From Natrinema versiforme (GTDB lineage: Archaea; Halobacteriota; Halobacteria; Halobacteriales; Natrialbaceae), in assembly GCF_005576615.1 (NCBI RefSeq), contig NZ_CP040332.1:124001-188000 (forward strand): a stretch of DNA of 64,000 bases. Reading direction: 5' to 3'. A program made the translations under genes and the position numbers. How positions within the stretch are numbered: position 1 is the first letter of the stretch; every line of letters begins with the position of its first letter. Positions 32,050 through 43,943 of the stretch are shown piece after piece. The notes below the pieces were generated by a model. The model was not told the origin of the DNA and searched no databases. It saw nothing but the letters and a program-made list of their open reading frames with translations.

Positions 32050-32107
32050 GCGGAGCAGGCCGAGTGCCTCGGGGCTTGACCCTGAGGGTGAAGGCCGTAC
32101 GCTCCGC
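32050..32107. repeat. Left-end hairpin of IS605-type element
   Basis: Nested stems: GCGGAGC (32050-32056) pairs with GCTCCGC (32101-32107), a GGCC/GGCC step lies inside, and the core CCTCGGGG pairs with CCCTGAGG with one G-T wobble around the loop CTTGA. The tnpA stop codon falls at the base of this structure. Confidence 0.75.
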
Positions 32108-32559
32108 TAAACGTGTTCTGTGCGCTCGATATATTGTTCAATCGTGTCGGTCGAAACATCTCCCGCCGTTCCGACGTAATACGATTCCTCCCAAAATCCG
32201 CCACCCCACAGATACTCTTCCAAGAACGGTTCGTGCTGTTCCCACATCTCTCGCGCCGTGATGCTCTTGACCGTTCGCACGATCTCGCTTGGTGCGTGTT
32301 TCGGATGGGCTGAAAGGAACAGGTGTACGTGGTCGGGCGAAATGTGGAGTCGTTCGAGAGACGAAGTCTCTCGTGATCACGAAAGTCGGAGATTTTCGGA
32401 CGACGACAGTATCTCGTATCCGTACTTGTCGCACACGTCGCGGAAACTCGCTTCCAGCGAATCCTCGATTGGTTCCAGTATCGCGTGTCGGTACTTCGGG
32501 CACCACACGAAGTGGTAGTTGACGTTGTACACCGTGTGGTTCGACCGCTTCTCGCCCAT
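32107..32559 (-). pseudogene. tnpA: IS200/IS605 TnpA (Y1 transposase) interrupted by in-frame stop
   Basis: The frame starts MGEKRSNHTVYNVNYHFVWC. After YEILS at about residue 52 come 18 extra codons that include a TGA (32377-32379), and then the same frame resumes with LHISPDHVHLFLSAHPKHAP. It continues to the Tyr region DTIEQYIERTEHV and a TAG. The HUH pair (His-Val-His in DHVHLF) and the catalytic Tyr in EQYIER are preserved. Without the 54-base insert the protein would be about 132 residues, the normal TnpA length. The insert is made almost entirely of palindromes. Confidence 0.85.
32350..32403. repeat. Palindrome-rich 54-base insert inside tnpA
   Basis: Contains an 8-bp stem with a 3-base loop (CGAGAGAC, GAA, GTCTCTCG at 32355-32373), the 12-base perfect palindrome TCGTGATCACGA (32371-32382), and a weaker CGAAA...TTTCG pair (32380-32398). 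It preserves reading frame on both sides but introduces TGA. The boundaries are inferred by comparing with the usual TnpA sequence across YEILS-LHISPDH. Confidence 0.6.
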
Positions 32560-32612: not shown

Positions 32613-32768
32613 ATGGCGAACCGTTTTGAAATCGACGGCGAGGAAGTTCTCGACGGCGAAGTCAAGGAGTTCGGGAACAGCGCCCACGTCACCGTCCCCA
32701 AACGCTGGCGTGGAGCCGACGTGAAAGTTGTCCGAACCTCAGAACCTACCGAACAAGACACCGAATGA
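32613..32768 (+). CDS. DUF2080 family transposon-encoded small protein (AbrB-like)
   Basis: 51 residues: MANRFEIDGEEVLDGEVKEF, then GNSAHVTVPKRWRGADVKVV. The block FGNSAHVTVPKRWRG resembles the swapped-hairpin AbrB/SpoVT DNA-binding fold. Such small genes are commonly found just before tnpB in haloarchaeal IS605/IS1341 elements. Its TGA overlaps the tnpB ATG (ATGA), giving tight co-translation. A role as a transcriptional regulator of the element is inferred, not shown. Confidence 0.8.
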   Translation: MANRFEIDGEEVLDGEVKEFGNSAHVTVPKRWRGADVKVVRTSEPTEQDTE

Positions 32769-34039
32769 CCGGCGCACAGGCCCTCGTCAAGACGCTGGAC
32801 TTCCAACTCGACATCCAGAGTGACAACGAGGGCCTGCTGTACGACGCCACCCTCGAAGCCCGCCGGGTGTACAACGAAACCATTCGACTCGCCAAAGAGG
32901 GCGTGGACTGGGACGCGATTCCCGACCGCGTGGCCGACGACGCCGACCTCGTGAAGAACACGACTCAGCGCGTCGTTGCGAAGGCACTCGGTGCGATGGA
33001 GAACTACTACGAGTACGACGACTTCGGCCATCCGAGCCACACCAAGGACGGCGCGTACCCGCTTCGTGCAAACTACGAGGAAGGGTACAACCTGTCGCTC
33101 ACCGACGACGGTGACGTGGCGTTCCGCATCAGCGCGAAGCCCTACAAGCACATCAAGGGCGTCCTTGAAGGGAGTGACACTCATCTCGGTATTCTCAAGA
33201 CCGCACTCGAAAGTGACGAGTGGAAGATTGGGACGGCTGAAGCCCTGTTCCACAACGAGAATGCCGAGTTGCACGTCAACGTCACCAACACCGAGCAGAC
33301 CGTTCGAGACAAGCAGGACTCGCAGACGGTCGTCGGCCTGGACGTGAACGAGGACAACGTTGCCTTGACCGCACTCTCAGCGGATAGTGTCGAAGATACG
33401 TTGGTCATTGACTTCCCCGAGATTAAGTTCGAGCGTCACCGCTACTTCACGATGCGGAAGCGCGTGCAGAACGCGGGGAAGGACAGCATCCACGACGCGC
33501 TGGAAGGGCGTGAGGAACGGTTCGTCCGCGACAGACTCCACAAGGTGAGCCGTCACATCGTGGAGTGGAGCCAGCAGTTCGAGAGGCCATGCATCGTCTT
33601 TGAAGACCTCAAAGAGATGCGCGACAGTATCGACTACGGCACGCGGATGAACCGACGCTTGCACCACCTCCCGTTCCGCGCCCTCCAGTTCTATACATCG
33701 TACAAGGCCGCTTTCGAGGGAATCCCGACCGCGTGGATTAACCCCGGGTACACGAGTCAACGGTGCCCGCTGTGCGGGCATACGGAGCGTGCGAACCGCA
33801 ATAAGAAGCGGTTCAAGTGTCGGTCGTGTTCCCATCAAGACCACTCTGACCGTGGTGCAAGCATTAACATCGCCGTGAAAGGCATGAAGAAACTCGATTG
33901 GAATGTGCCTGTTCTCAACAGCCTTCCCCAAGTTCGGAAGGTGCGACGGCAGGCATCGGGGGCCGTGGACGCCCCGACCGTGACCCACGACGCCGTTCGA
34001 GGCTATCAGACCGATGGTGTCGCGGGAGTATCCGACTAA
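32765..34039 (+). CDS. tnpB: TnpB, RNA-guided endonuclease of IS605-type element
   Basis: 424 residues, normal haloarchaeal length. RuvC-like residues are Asp193 (VVGLDVNEDN), Glu280 (CIVFEDLKEMR) and Asp362 (DHSDRGASINIA). The zinc ribbon has Cys334/Cys337 (RCPLCGH) and Cys352/Cys355 (KCRSCSH). All active-site residues are present, so nuclease activity is plausible even though the tnpA partner is broken. TnpB proteins use an omega-RNA derived from the 3' end of their own element to cut the donor site. The tail after residue 375 (VLNSLPQVRKVRRQASG) is typical of the group. Confidence 0.93.
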   Translation: MTGAQALVKTLDFQLDIQSDNEGLLYDATLEARRVYNETIRLAKEGVDWDAIPDRVADDADLVKNTTQRVVAKALGAMENYYEYDDFGHPSHTKDGAYPLRANYEEGYNLSLTDDGDVAFRISAKPYKHIKGVLEGSDTHLGILKTALESDEWKIGTAEALFHNENAELHVNVTNTEQTVRDKQDSQTVVGLDVNEDNVALTALSADSVEDTLVIDFPEIKFERHRYFTMRKRVQNAGKDSIHDALEGREERFVRDRLHKVSRHIVEWSQQFERPCIVFEDLKEMRDSIDYGTRMNRRLHHLPFRALQFYTSYKAAFEGIPTAWINPGYTSQRCPLCGHTERANRNKKRFKCRSCSHQDHSDRGASINIAVKGMKKLDWNVPVLNSLPQVRKVRRQASGAVDAPTVTHDAVRGYQTDGVAGVSD

Positions 34040-34072
34040 TCCACGGGAAGCCTCGGGGCTTGACCCCGAGGC
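33900..34072 (+). ncRNA. Probable omega-RNA region (3' end of tnpB to right end)
   Basis: In TnpB elements the guide RNA scaffold overlaps the 3' end of tnpB and ends at the element's right end, with the guide taken from flanking DNA. By that rule the scaffold here would finish with the RE hairpin at 34050-34072, and the guide would be the sequence just after about 34073, inside the last codons of the neighbouring SHOCT gene. Boundaries are approximate; no direct evidence of transcription. Confidence 0.4.
34050..34072. repeat. Right-end hairpin of IS605-type element
   Basis: GCCTCGGGG (34050-34058) pairs perfectly with CCCCGAGGC (34064-34072) across the loop CTTGA. The same core is present at the left end and, in a diverged form, as an orphan at 39440. 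Confidence 0.85.
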
Positions 34073-34075
34073 GGT

Positions 34076-34588
34076 TCACCCGTCTCGGTCCTCTATTTCG
34101 ACAGTGGTCTCGTTTCCGGACCGCGGCGTCTCGGTCGCGAAATCGTCGTCGAGTACCTGCTCCATCTCGCGTTCGAACTCTGCCTCGTCGATCTCGCCCG
34201 CCGCGTATCGGTCTTTGATCCGTTGTTCGCGGTCTTCGACTGTCGGCTCGACTTTCTCCGAGACGTCGAACTGCTGCAGGATCGGATACTCGCGCTCGAG
34301 TCGTTCAACGAGCGAGACGAGTCGGTCACTGCGGGGGAGTGACGCGCTCCGGAGCACGGAGACGATAGTCGCGCCGAGCAATACCACTGCGACCAGCCCG
34401 AGGACGAGCCCAACCATGACCCATTCGGCGGCTTCCCCGAGCATCGCCAGCAGGATGAACTCCTCGCCATAGTACACGTCACCGGAGAGCACCGACAGTG
34501 CATCTACCACTCCCATCAGACCGACACCGACCAGTAGAACTCCCGTGATCACGAACCCACCGAAGTACAGCCAGTGACGAGAGACCAT
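34076..34588 (-). CDS. SHOCT domain membrane protein
   Basis: 170 residues. Two hydrophobic helices (WLYFGGFVITGVLLVGVGLM and EWVMVGLVLGLVAVVLLGAT) precede a soluble C-terminal region with the SHOCT motif IKDRYAAGEIDEAEFEREME. SHOCT segments are short C-terminal helices found on many bacterial and archaeal membrane proteins; function unclear. ATG 34588 was chosen over 34699. The stop codon at 34076-34078 is four bases from the IS right-end hairpin, so the IS probably landed at or near the gene's 3' end and may have altered the final residues. Confidence 0.8.
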   Translation of the reverse strand: MVSRHWLYFGGFVITGVLLVGVGLMGVVDALSVLSGDVYYGEEFILLAMLGEAAEWVMVGLVLGLVAVVLLGATIVSVLRSASLPRSDRLVSLVERLEREYPILQQFDVSEKVEPTVEDREQRIKDRYAAGEIDEAEFEREMEQVLDDDFATETPRSGNETTVEIEDRDG

Positions 34589-42705: not shown

Positions 42706-43943
42706 GTTCGTTCGCGGTCGTGAAAGGTCGTTCGTCGGGCTATCCGTTTCTGCGCGGAACGCCAGCACTCGTAGAAGGCGCTGGCGGGGTGGTAGTCGGG
42801 CTCGACGCCCGGTGGGTTGGGGGCGACAGGGTCGTCATCGCCCGCGAGACGCTTCTCGTACCAGAGGCCGGCGGAGCCGCGGTAGCGGTCGGTACATGCG
42901 AGGAACTGCCGGTTCCACTCCCGTAGCCGATCGGCCGCGTCGGTGTCCCCGTGTGTGGCGGCTCGCTCGGCGAGCGCCGCGGAGGCGCCGATGGCCTCCG
43001 CCAACGCCCACCCGTACTGGTCGGACACGATGAGCGTCCCGTCCGCCTCGTGCGTGTAGGCGAAGCCGTCCTCGGTCCAGCCGTTGTCGACGGCGGTCTC
43101 GAACAGCTCGAGCGCGCGGGCGTACCAGCCGCCTTCGGGTGCGCCCTCGTCGCCATCCGCGGCGTACCGGTCGAGCAGCGCGAGGAACTTCGCCCACTCG
43201 AGGTGGTGGCCGGGCTGGTACCCCGGCGGTCGGAACTGGTGGCGGGGGTCGTCCTCGTTGTACCCGAAGTCGTGGTCCCAGTCGTCGGTATAGTGCTCCC
43301 ACAGCAGCCCGTCGGTCCCCGCGGCGAGATCGACCGTAATCGTCCGTGCGATGTGGCGCGCACGGTCGAGGTATTCGTCTGCGCCGGTCGCCTCGAAGGC
43401 GGCGAGGTACGCCTCGCAGGCGTGCATGTTCGCGTTCTGGCCGCGGTAGGCCTCCCGTTCGGTCCAATCCGGGTCGCAGTCGCTCCGGAGCATCCCGGCG
43501 TCGTCGCGGAACCGGTCCTCGAGCAGGTCGTGTGTCGCTGTGAGGCCGTTCTCAGCGCCGTCTACTCCGGCCACGGTGGCGCGTGCGTAGGCGAGGAGGA
43601 CGAAGGCGTGTCCATACGCCGAGCGGGTCCGGTCGAGCGGAGTGCCGTCCGCATCGACGAGGAGGTAGTAACCGCCATCGACGGACCGGTGGACCTCCTC
43701 GAGGAACCGCAGTCCGTGCTCGGCGGCGTCGAGACACCAGTCCGGGCCGTCGACGATTGCGCCGACCGCGAAGTTCGCGATCGATCGGCACGTCGCCACG
43801 AGGTGCCGGCGGTGGCCCGTGTACGGCTCCCCGGACATCGGGTGCAACAGCCGGAAGCCGCGCTCCGCGAGCGCGTCCGGGTACTGTACCCGGAGCGTCG
43901 CGAGCAGCCGGCCGCGATGTGCGGTTGCAGGGACGTCACTCAT
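42702..43943 (-). CDS. AGE family epimerase/isomerase
   Basis: 413 residues, (alpha/alpha)6-barrel of the N-acylglucosamine 2-epimerase family. Landmarks: GGYYLLVDADGTPLDRTRSA, QNANMHACEAYLAAFEATGA (conserved His-x-x-Glu), QPGHHLEWAKFLALLDR (conserved Gly-His-x-x-Glu-Trp) and DYHPASAFYECWRSAQ at the end. Members interconvert aldoses and ketoses or mannose and glucose-type sugars. In an operon with UxuA and a sugar ABC importer it probably prepares the imported sugar for the pathway. Confidence 0.88.
   Translation of the reverse strand: MSDVPATAHRGRLLATLRVQYPDALAERGFRLLHPMSGEPYTGHRRHLVATCRSIANFAVGAIVDGPDWCLDAAEHGLRFLEEVHRSVDGGYYLLVDADGTPLDRTRSAYGHAFVLLAYARATVAGVDGAENGLTATHDLLEDRFRDDAGMLRSDCDPDWTEREAYRGQNANMHACEAYLAAFEATGADEYLDRARHIARTITVDLAAGTDGLLWEHYTDDWDHDFGYNEDDPRHQFRPPGYQPGHHLEWAKFLALLDRYAADGDEGAPEGGWYARALELFETAVDNGWTEDGFAYTHEADGTLIVSDQYGWALAEAIGASAALAERAATHGDTDAADRLREWNRQFLACTDRYRGSAGLWYEKRLAGDDDPVAPNPPGVEPDYHPASAFYECWRSAQKRIARRTTFHDRERT

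Follow-up and report, generated by a model that had tools for sequence, protein, structure and literature searches.

The window, that is, the whole stretch of DNA that was analysed, covers 64,000 nucleotides of Natrinema versiforme (NZ_CP040332.1, positions 124,001 to 188,000). It carries an insertion sequence (IS) in which tnpB is divergent from tnpA, and which also comprises a small DUF2080 reading frame and two terminal palindromes. The features of this IS and of the repeat that interrupts it, in window coordinates, are as follows:

32066..32087: terminal palindrome of the IS on the tnpA side; in relatives the repeat family inserts into its loop, which is empty here
32110..32559, minus strand: tnpA, an IS200-type Y1 HUH transposase gene interrupted by the repeat (from the reading frame and Pfam)
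32350..32403, minus strand: paired-hairpin repeat of 54 nt, TCGTC-hairpin 1-TGATCA-hairpin 2-AACGA, between G and C (from alignment to empty relatives and a covariance model)
32355..32373, minus strand: hairpin 2, CGAGAGAC-ttc-GTCTCTCG
32374..32379, minus strand: TGATCA core, the source of the TGA stop in the tnpA frame
32380..32398, minus strand: hairpin 1, CGAAAATC-tcc-GACTTTCG, with one A.C mismatch in the window copy
32613..32768, plus strand: small ORF for a DUF2080 transposase-associated protein of the same IS (from the ORF list, named through homology to annotated plasmid copies)
32765..34039, plus strand: tnpB, the RNA-guided endonuclease gene of the same IS, free of inserts in the window copy
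33903..34100, plus strand: sot2652-like sense overlapping transcript at the tnpB 3′ end, probably an omega RNA (Rfam RF02657)
34050..34072: terminal palindrome of the IS on the tnpB side; its loop is likewise an insertion site in relatives and is empty here

Read on the minus strand from 32559 to 32110, a single frame (MGEKR...YEILS-SSENLRLS*SRETSSLER-LHISPDHVHLF...EHV) contains the whole of an IS200-type tnpA plus 18 surplus codons after YEILS, one of which is TGA. The Pfam domain Y1_Tnp (PF01797) spans this read-through frame end to end, with E 4.9e-35 and about 18 surplus residues, and the HUH motif and tyrosine found within it place the gene among the IS200/IS605 tnpA genes. The original prediction, a frame-preserving insert with a stop at 32350-32403, is correct to the base: since close haloarchaeal relatives read uninterrupted YEILSLHISPDHVHLF, without the 18 codons, alignment to them fixes the borders exactly there, so that EILS and LHIS are split. 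The three palindromes that it described are a hairpin, the TGATCA core and a second hairpin, and the stop, at 32379-32377 of the minus strand, is part of the core. It had also placed all catalytic residues on correct sides, which has to be corrected: the HUH motif and the catalytic tyrosine of the window tnpA both sit downstream of TGA, and a terminated product would therefore be without them. The TGA is not an assembly error, because about 15 independent assemblies have it. No intact copy of the window IS tnpA occurs elsewhere in the genome, the nearest relative being 45% identical. At the 3′ end of tnpB, RF02657 matches 33903-34100 with E 1.1e-9 and 52 bits, which is below its gathering score of 61; judged by this match, the omega RNA of the window IS probably lies there.

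Structure and distribution of the repeat family

Nineteen elements of 54 nt align without a gap; their two stems are 97% and 99% paired, and their covariation is 0.369 against 0.140 in shuffled alignments. The unit can be written as TSGTY-(8-bp stem with 3-nt loop)-TSA, and two such units are inverted about a TSATCA core (S = C or G). Base 2, in the foot, pairs with base 26, in the core, in all 61 distinct elements (CG in 35, GC in 24 and GT in 2), while the alternative outer pair 2-53 forms in 35 of the 61. Therefore, each half is a unit of its own and the element is an inverted doublet. GNA or TNC loops account for 90 of the 122 loops in these 61 elements. C-GNA-G loops form very stable DNA hairpins, and single-stranded DNA is therefore suggested as the working form of the repeat. 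The foot is TCGTC at the window tnpA site and at the tnpB site, and TCGTT or TGGTT elsewhere.

A scan for paired hairpins with 3-nt loops found 48 in the fetched loci and 0 in shuffles, a count that belongs to loci chosen for tnpA and is not a genome-wide rate. Folding energy was also tried as evidence of structure and was set aside, being unexceptional against shuffles (z −1.0 as DNA, −0.7 as RNA). That is to say, a chance origin of the insert is countered by recurrence, covariation and genome-wide matches rather than by folding energy. No known RNA family matches over the insert.

The covariance model of the repeat, R1, matches the window at exactly 32350-32403 (E 3.5e-23) and was used for genome searches. 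Matches were found in 120 of the 121 genomes of the window's family; in the phylum sample they occur in 31 of the 33 listed genomes of the window's order and in only 5 others, weakly. The repeat family is haloarchaea-wide, occurring in nearly all sampled haloarchaeal genomes; no copies were found in phages. The window's own genome holds about a dozen clear copies, among which the tnpA copy is the only one of 54 nt and the remainder, intergenic copies included, are 57-62 nt long; one of them sits downstream of a gene with a GGM-rich, thermosome-like tail end. Clear copies elsewhere are about 54-62 nt. Outside ISs the preceding base is G in 18 of 18 copies and the following base is C in 17 of 18, and insertion between G and C is scarless and without target duplication. 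As separate observations, four genomes of other families of the phylum (G435, G444, G451 and G542) have 13-24 weak R1 matches each, with E 1e-9 to 1e-11, which may belong to a separate family of hairpin repeats found beyond the haloarchaea, and an adjacent pair of perfect hairpins, CGCGCTCCGCGAGCGCG TCCGGGTACTGTACCCGGA, lies outside the IS at 43859-43894 of the window and may be chance or another repeat family.

The distribution also bears on removal from RNA, in which the insert would be an archaeal bulge-helix-bulge or other intron. Precise borders, a conserved secondary structure and an otherwise intact host gene are what such an intron would have. However, the predicted fold is a junction of two hairpins and lacks, where the insert meets tnpA, the two 3-nt bulges on either side of a 4-bp helix, and the element also lies in terminal palindromes and intergenic DNA, where splicing would be pointless; an intron is hardly credible here.

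Insertion sites and turnover in IS200/IS605 elements

About 20 haloarchaeal lineages have an insert at the window tnpA site (site A), and most have none there; among 80 fetched relatives about 14 hold a 54-nt element of the same design. Other sites in tnpA are B (HPK^HAPSE, 54 nt), C (CPK^YRH, 51 nt) and D (around WC^PKYR, 45 nt). At the tnpB 3′ end most inserts are 54 nt long, in frame and with TGA, and the others are of a different kind and out of frame. A further site, GGGGTCAAG^CCCCGAGG, is the loop of the terminal palindrome at either end of the IS, with one position filled in many lineages. Every element at the sites in tnpA, at the tnpB 3′ end and in the palindromes consists of two hairpins with 3-nt loops.

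Two side observations concern these sites. A second paired-hairpin family (CTCAAAGTC.../CACAAGAGC...) occurs in L026 (1059-1111), L040 (1026-1078), L044 (1059-1111) and L057 (1060-1110), very close to where the 54-nt element enters the tnpB 3′ end, out of frame and within the region of the sot2652-like omega RNA. In L075 (2501-2898), tnpA has the start of an A insert fused to the downstream flank of site B (SSENRRFSGSRETKFLER-HAPSE), apparently by recombination of A and B inserts with deletion of the intervening segment.

Mapped on a tree of 77 distinct tnpA sequences, which does not separate gain from loss, the A insert requires 14 state changes, and for the TGA form alone at least six changes are forced by well-supported (starred) branches. 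IS copies from Natrialba (L026), Natronocalculus (L048) and Natronobiforma (L059) are near-identical, with few base differences over about 2 kb, and lie at different genomic places; the first has a tnpB insert only, the second D only, and the third A, B and the tnpB insert, all with clean junctions. Because near-identical IS copies of different genera hold different sets, the inserts come and go quickly. In a Halorhabdus copy (L028), whose tnpB is somewhat further removed, the tnpB insert is accompanied by one in a palindrome, again with clean junctions. The insert is not the 'decay scar' that had been considered, being intact, recurrent and scarless; the other suggestion, a REP-like insertion, was right in kind, the insert being a mobile inverted doublet of hairpins. 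The IS as a whole has changed place as well: TGA-bearing copies in two species (L032 and L142) are 98.5% identical and lie at different genomic places, and therefore this IS moved at least once, perhaps in trans. These two copies also share about 560 extra bases between tnpA and tnpB (about −786 to −205 from the tnpA start in L032).

Most probably the insert is a haloarchaea-wide, non-coding mobile repeat of two inverted REP-like hairpin units, which would move as single-stranded DNA through a Y1 transposase in trans and whose TGA would end the window TnpA. The repeat inserts between G and C, without target duplication, and in IS200/IS605 elements it does so at a few recurrent points. Its half-element resembles an IS200/IS605 right end, in which, as is reported of IS608, a guide 5′ of the hairpin base-pairs at the point of 3′ cleavage; in the repeat TC would be this guide, pairing with GA, and cleavage would follow A54. 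The candidate mover would be an IS200-type Y1 HUH transposase reading the GNA-loop hairpins and the foot paired to the core. IS200-type TnpA would be the candidate because archaea have only the IS200-type subclass of Y1 enzymes and no RAYT (PMC6006769).

The main weak point of this insertion account is site A itself. The p-distance between its elements is 0.025 outside the loops and 0.62 in the loops, with 0.297 at fourfold sites of the same genes, and its stems are nearly constant, whereas the stems of the family vary widely. Insertions drawn independently from a diverse pool would not be expected to agree so closely; subfamilies specific to each site could play a part, as could precise losses that start from an ancestral state or recombination of short tracts among IS copies. 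No donor for the L059 insert was seen in its genome in a non-exhaustive look, the visible non-IS copies being different. Stem sequences that differ by site and hardly vary at site A would also agree with one old insertion at each site that later passed from one IS copy to another via homologous recombination or gene conversion. However, the flanks of A and B in L059 match insert-free near-twins up to the junctions, so conversion must twice have acted on very short tracts, and synonymous sites near the insert vary among carriers. We consider this course of events rather unlikely.

The filled and empty states are scarless among near-identical ISs, and excision of IS200/IS605 elements is scarless too, as established for IS608. 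A Y1 transposase might accordingly insert and excise the repeat precisely, toggling tnpA as a form of reversible silencing. Deletion of whole REPINs has been observed in Pseudomonas reads (PMC3116915). However, the tnpA tree gives no direction to the changes and no excision within one strain was seen, and reversible silencing is kept as a lesser possibility beside a mobile repeat that interrupts the gene.

The TGA stop and the fate of TnpA

Most site A copies keep TGA, and about seven have GGA or CGA in its place. GGA is carried by L019, L055/L057, L059, L075, L149 and L163, and CGA by a Haloferax larsenii plasmid copy (L191) with an annotated 150-aa tnpA; one plasmid record of a TGA copy has no tnpA among its genes, while one of a CGA copy lists the 150-aa gene (that gene table is known to be incomplete). 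It had been proposed as a refuting observation that relatives normally contain the 18 codons with a sense codon in place of TGA; this holds for these few carriers, but most relatives are free of the insert. By hand count, about 7 of 23 lineages have another codon in place of TGA, whereas the mirror position is changed in 0 of 23 (p 0.009); replacement of TGA is also commoner at site A than in non-coding copies (p 0.03). Selection against the stop was considered as the cause and rejected, since the GGA copies have C at position 5, pairing the new G. Judging from these sequences, structure may explain most of the replacement, and only the CGA copy (L191) escapes the pairing account. In a predicted structure of the GGA form the fold is kept and insert residues 54-67 are disordered (pLDDT under 50), so that an 18-residue loop derived from the insert is conceivable in a modelled TnpA.

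The preserved frame was likewise rejected as evidence of selection. It is weak evidence of function because 18 codons are the usual size of IS-borne copies: 54 nt is also found in 21 of the 24 copies in non-coding palindromes. The frame would be kept for this reason, perhaps helped by weak selection.

It had also been suggested, more speculatively, that the insert is bypassed or read through, that is, that TGA is read or the 54 nt are hopped, with TnpA being made and the insert tolerated or regulatory. Several observations fit: among 14 distinct TGA copies, 13 show no other damage (1 of 14 has a further lesion, as have roughly one in five uninserted copies), dN/dS is about 0.12 on either side of the stop (dS about 0.4-0.6), and the TGA-bearing IS has changed place. 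Nevertheless, dN/dS had to be discarded as proof of read-through: it is the same in carriers and uninserted copies, and it is uninformative because the stop is young in each lineage and purifying selection before the insertion gives the same ratios. Under rapid turnover, dead young copies would look just like working ones. Moreover, the GGA and CGA replacements in some carriers would be unneeded if TGA were decoded, copies in non-coding DNA have this TGA core as well, and UGA decoding is not known from haloarchaea. Read-through is unsupported, and it is unnecessary to explain the TGA copies; we regard it as very unlikely.

The window tnpA is most likely switched off by the insert rather than read through. 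The TGA of the core would end TnpA after 60 residues, ahead of HUH and the tyrosine, and the window IS would then at present be unable to move itself. In the simplest account, the TGA copies are interrupted, IS copies have possibly moved in trans, and a minority regain an open frame. It is improbable that the 54-nt pair is instead a reversible Y1 switch (or is removed or bypassed in expression), with TGA copies of tnpA that are regulated and working, as part of a REPIN-like haloarchaeal system without RAYT. The interrupted copies nevertheless carry a warning, namely that a stop within an in-frame palindromic insert of an archaeal transposase is not necessarily a sign of recoding; a pseudogene label on tnpA may hide a recent, possibly reversible interruption, and the GGA and CGA carriers may show the gain by a protein of an 18-residue segment from a mobile repeat.

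Relation to known mobile repeats

With the present repeat, mobile palindromes of the REPIN/SMR type now include a family that spans the haloarchaeal lineage and whose structure and insertion dinucleotide are defined; its nearest precedents are the SMR-A repeats and the bacterial REPINs. Since near-identical ISs offer cleanly filled and cleanly empty sites, the question, raised in 2011, of what moves small repeats that attack IS605 elements becomes directly testable. No other description of a haloarchaeal counterpart was found in the open-access literature.

The mobilisation of the SMR-A repeats of Haloquadratum walsbyi (HqIRS42, 43 and 55) has been called enigmatic (PMC3119063). As far as that description goes, they are short and non-coding, with inverted ends and no target duplication, all of which is also true of the present repeat, and they strongly prefer near-terminal palindromes of IS605-type transposons, where the present repeat fills GGGGTCAAG^CCCCGAGG too, with the window copy in tnpA. 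By the same description they are set apart, being about 110 bp long against 54 nt here (about 54-62 nt elsewhere), lying mostly outside the transposase ORF and not being described as two hairpins with 3-nt loops; moreover, they are given for one species, whereas the present repeat is haloarchaea-wide and also lies inside tnpA and tnpB (PMC3119063). The haloarchaeal PATEs are, in the account given there, palindromic, linked to IS605 and without target duplication, as is the repeat; however, they are derived from IS605 ends and have no terminal inverted repeats, whereas the ends of the repeat are inverted and IS605 palindromes are its targets (PMC3119063).

With REPINs and BIMEs the repeat shares two inverted REP-like hairpins, compensatory changes, dispersal and replication as a doublet (PMC3116915, PMC6006769). 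Unlike them, it has TSGTY in place of a GTAG foot, is shorter, and is intragenic in ISs. The CGTC-tagged REPs, including RPE-4 and RPE-6 of Rickettsia, resemble it in their 8-bp stems, inverted dimers, in-frame copies within ORFs and want of a dedicated transposase (PMC3733652). Their tag, CGTC (TGTC, CCTC) at one end, is matched in part by the CGTC/CGTT-like foot of the repeat, which is TCGTC in some copies and TCGTT or TGGTT in others. They are bacterial, with loops of 4-5 nt, an AT stem start and a CCA tail, whereas the repeat has 3-nt loops, a CG stem start and a TSA (TGA) tail (PMC3733652). In summary, the repeat is of the same kind as SMR-A, REPINs and CGTC-tagged REPs and is a member of none of them, a defining feature of each being absent from it.
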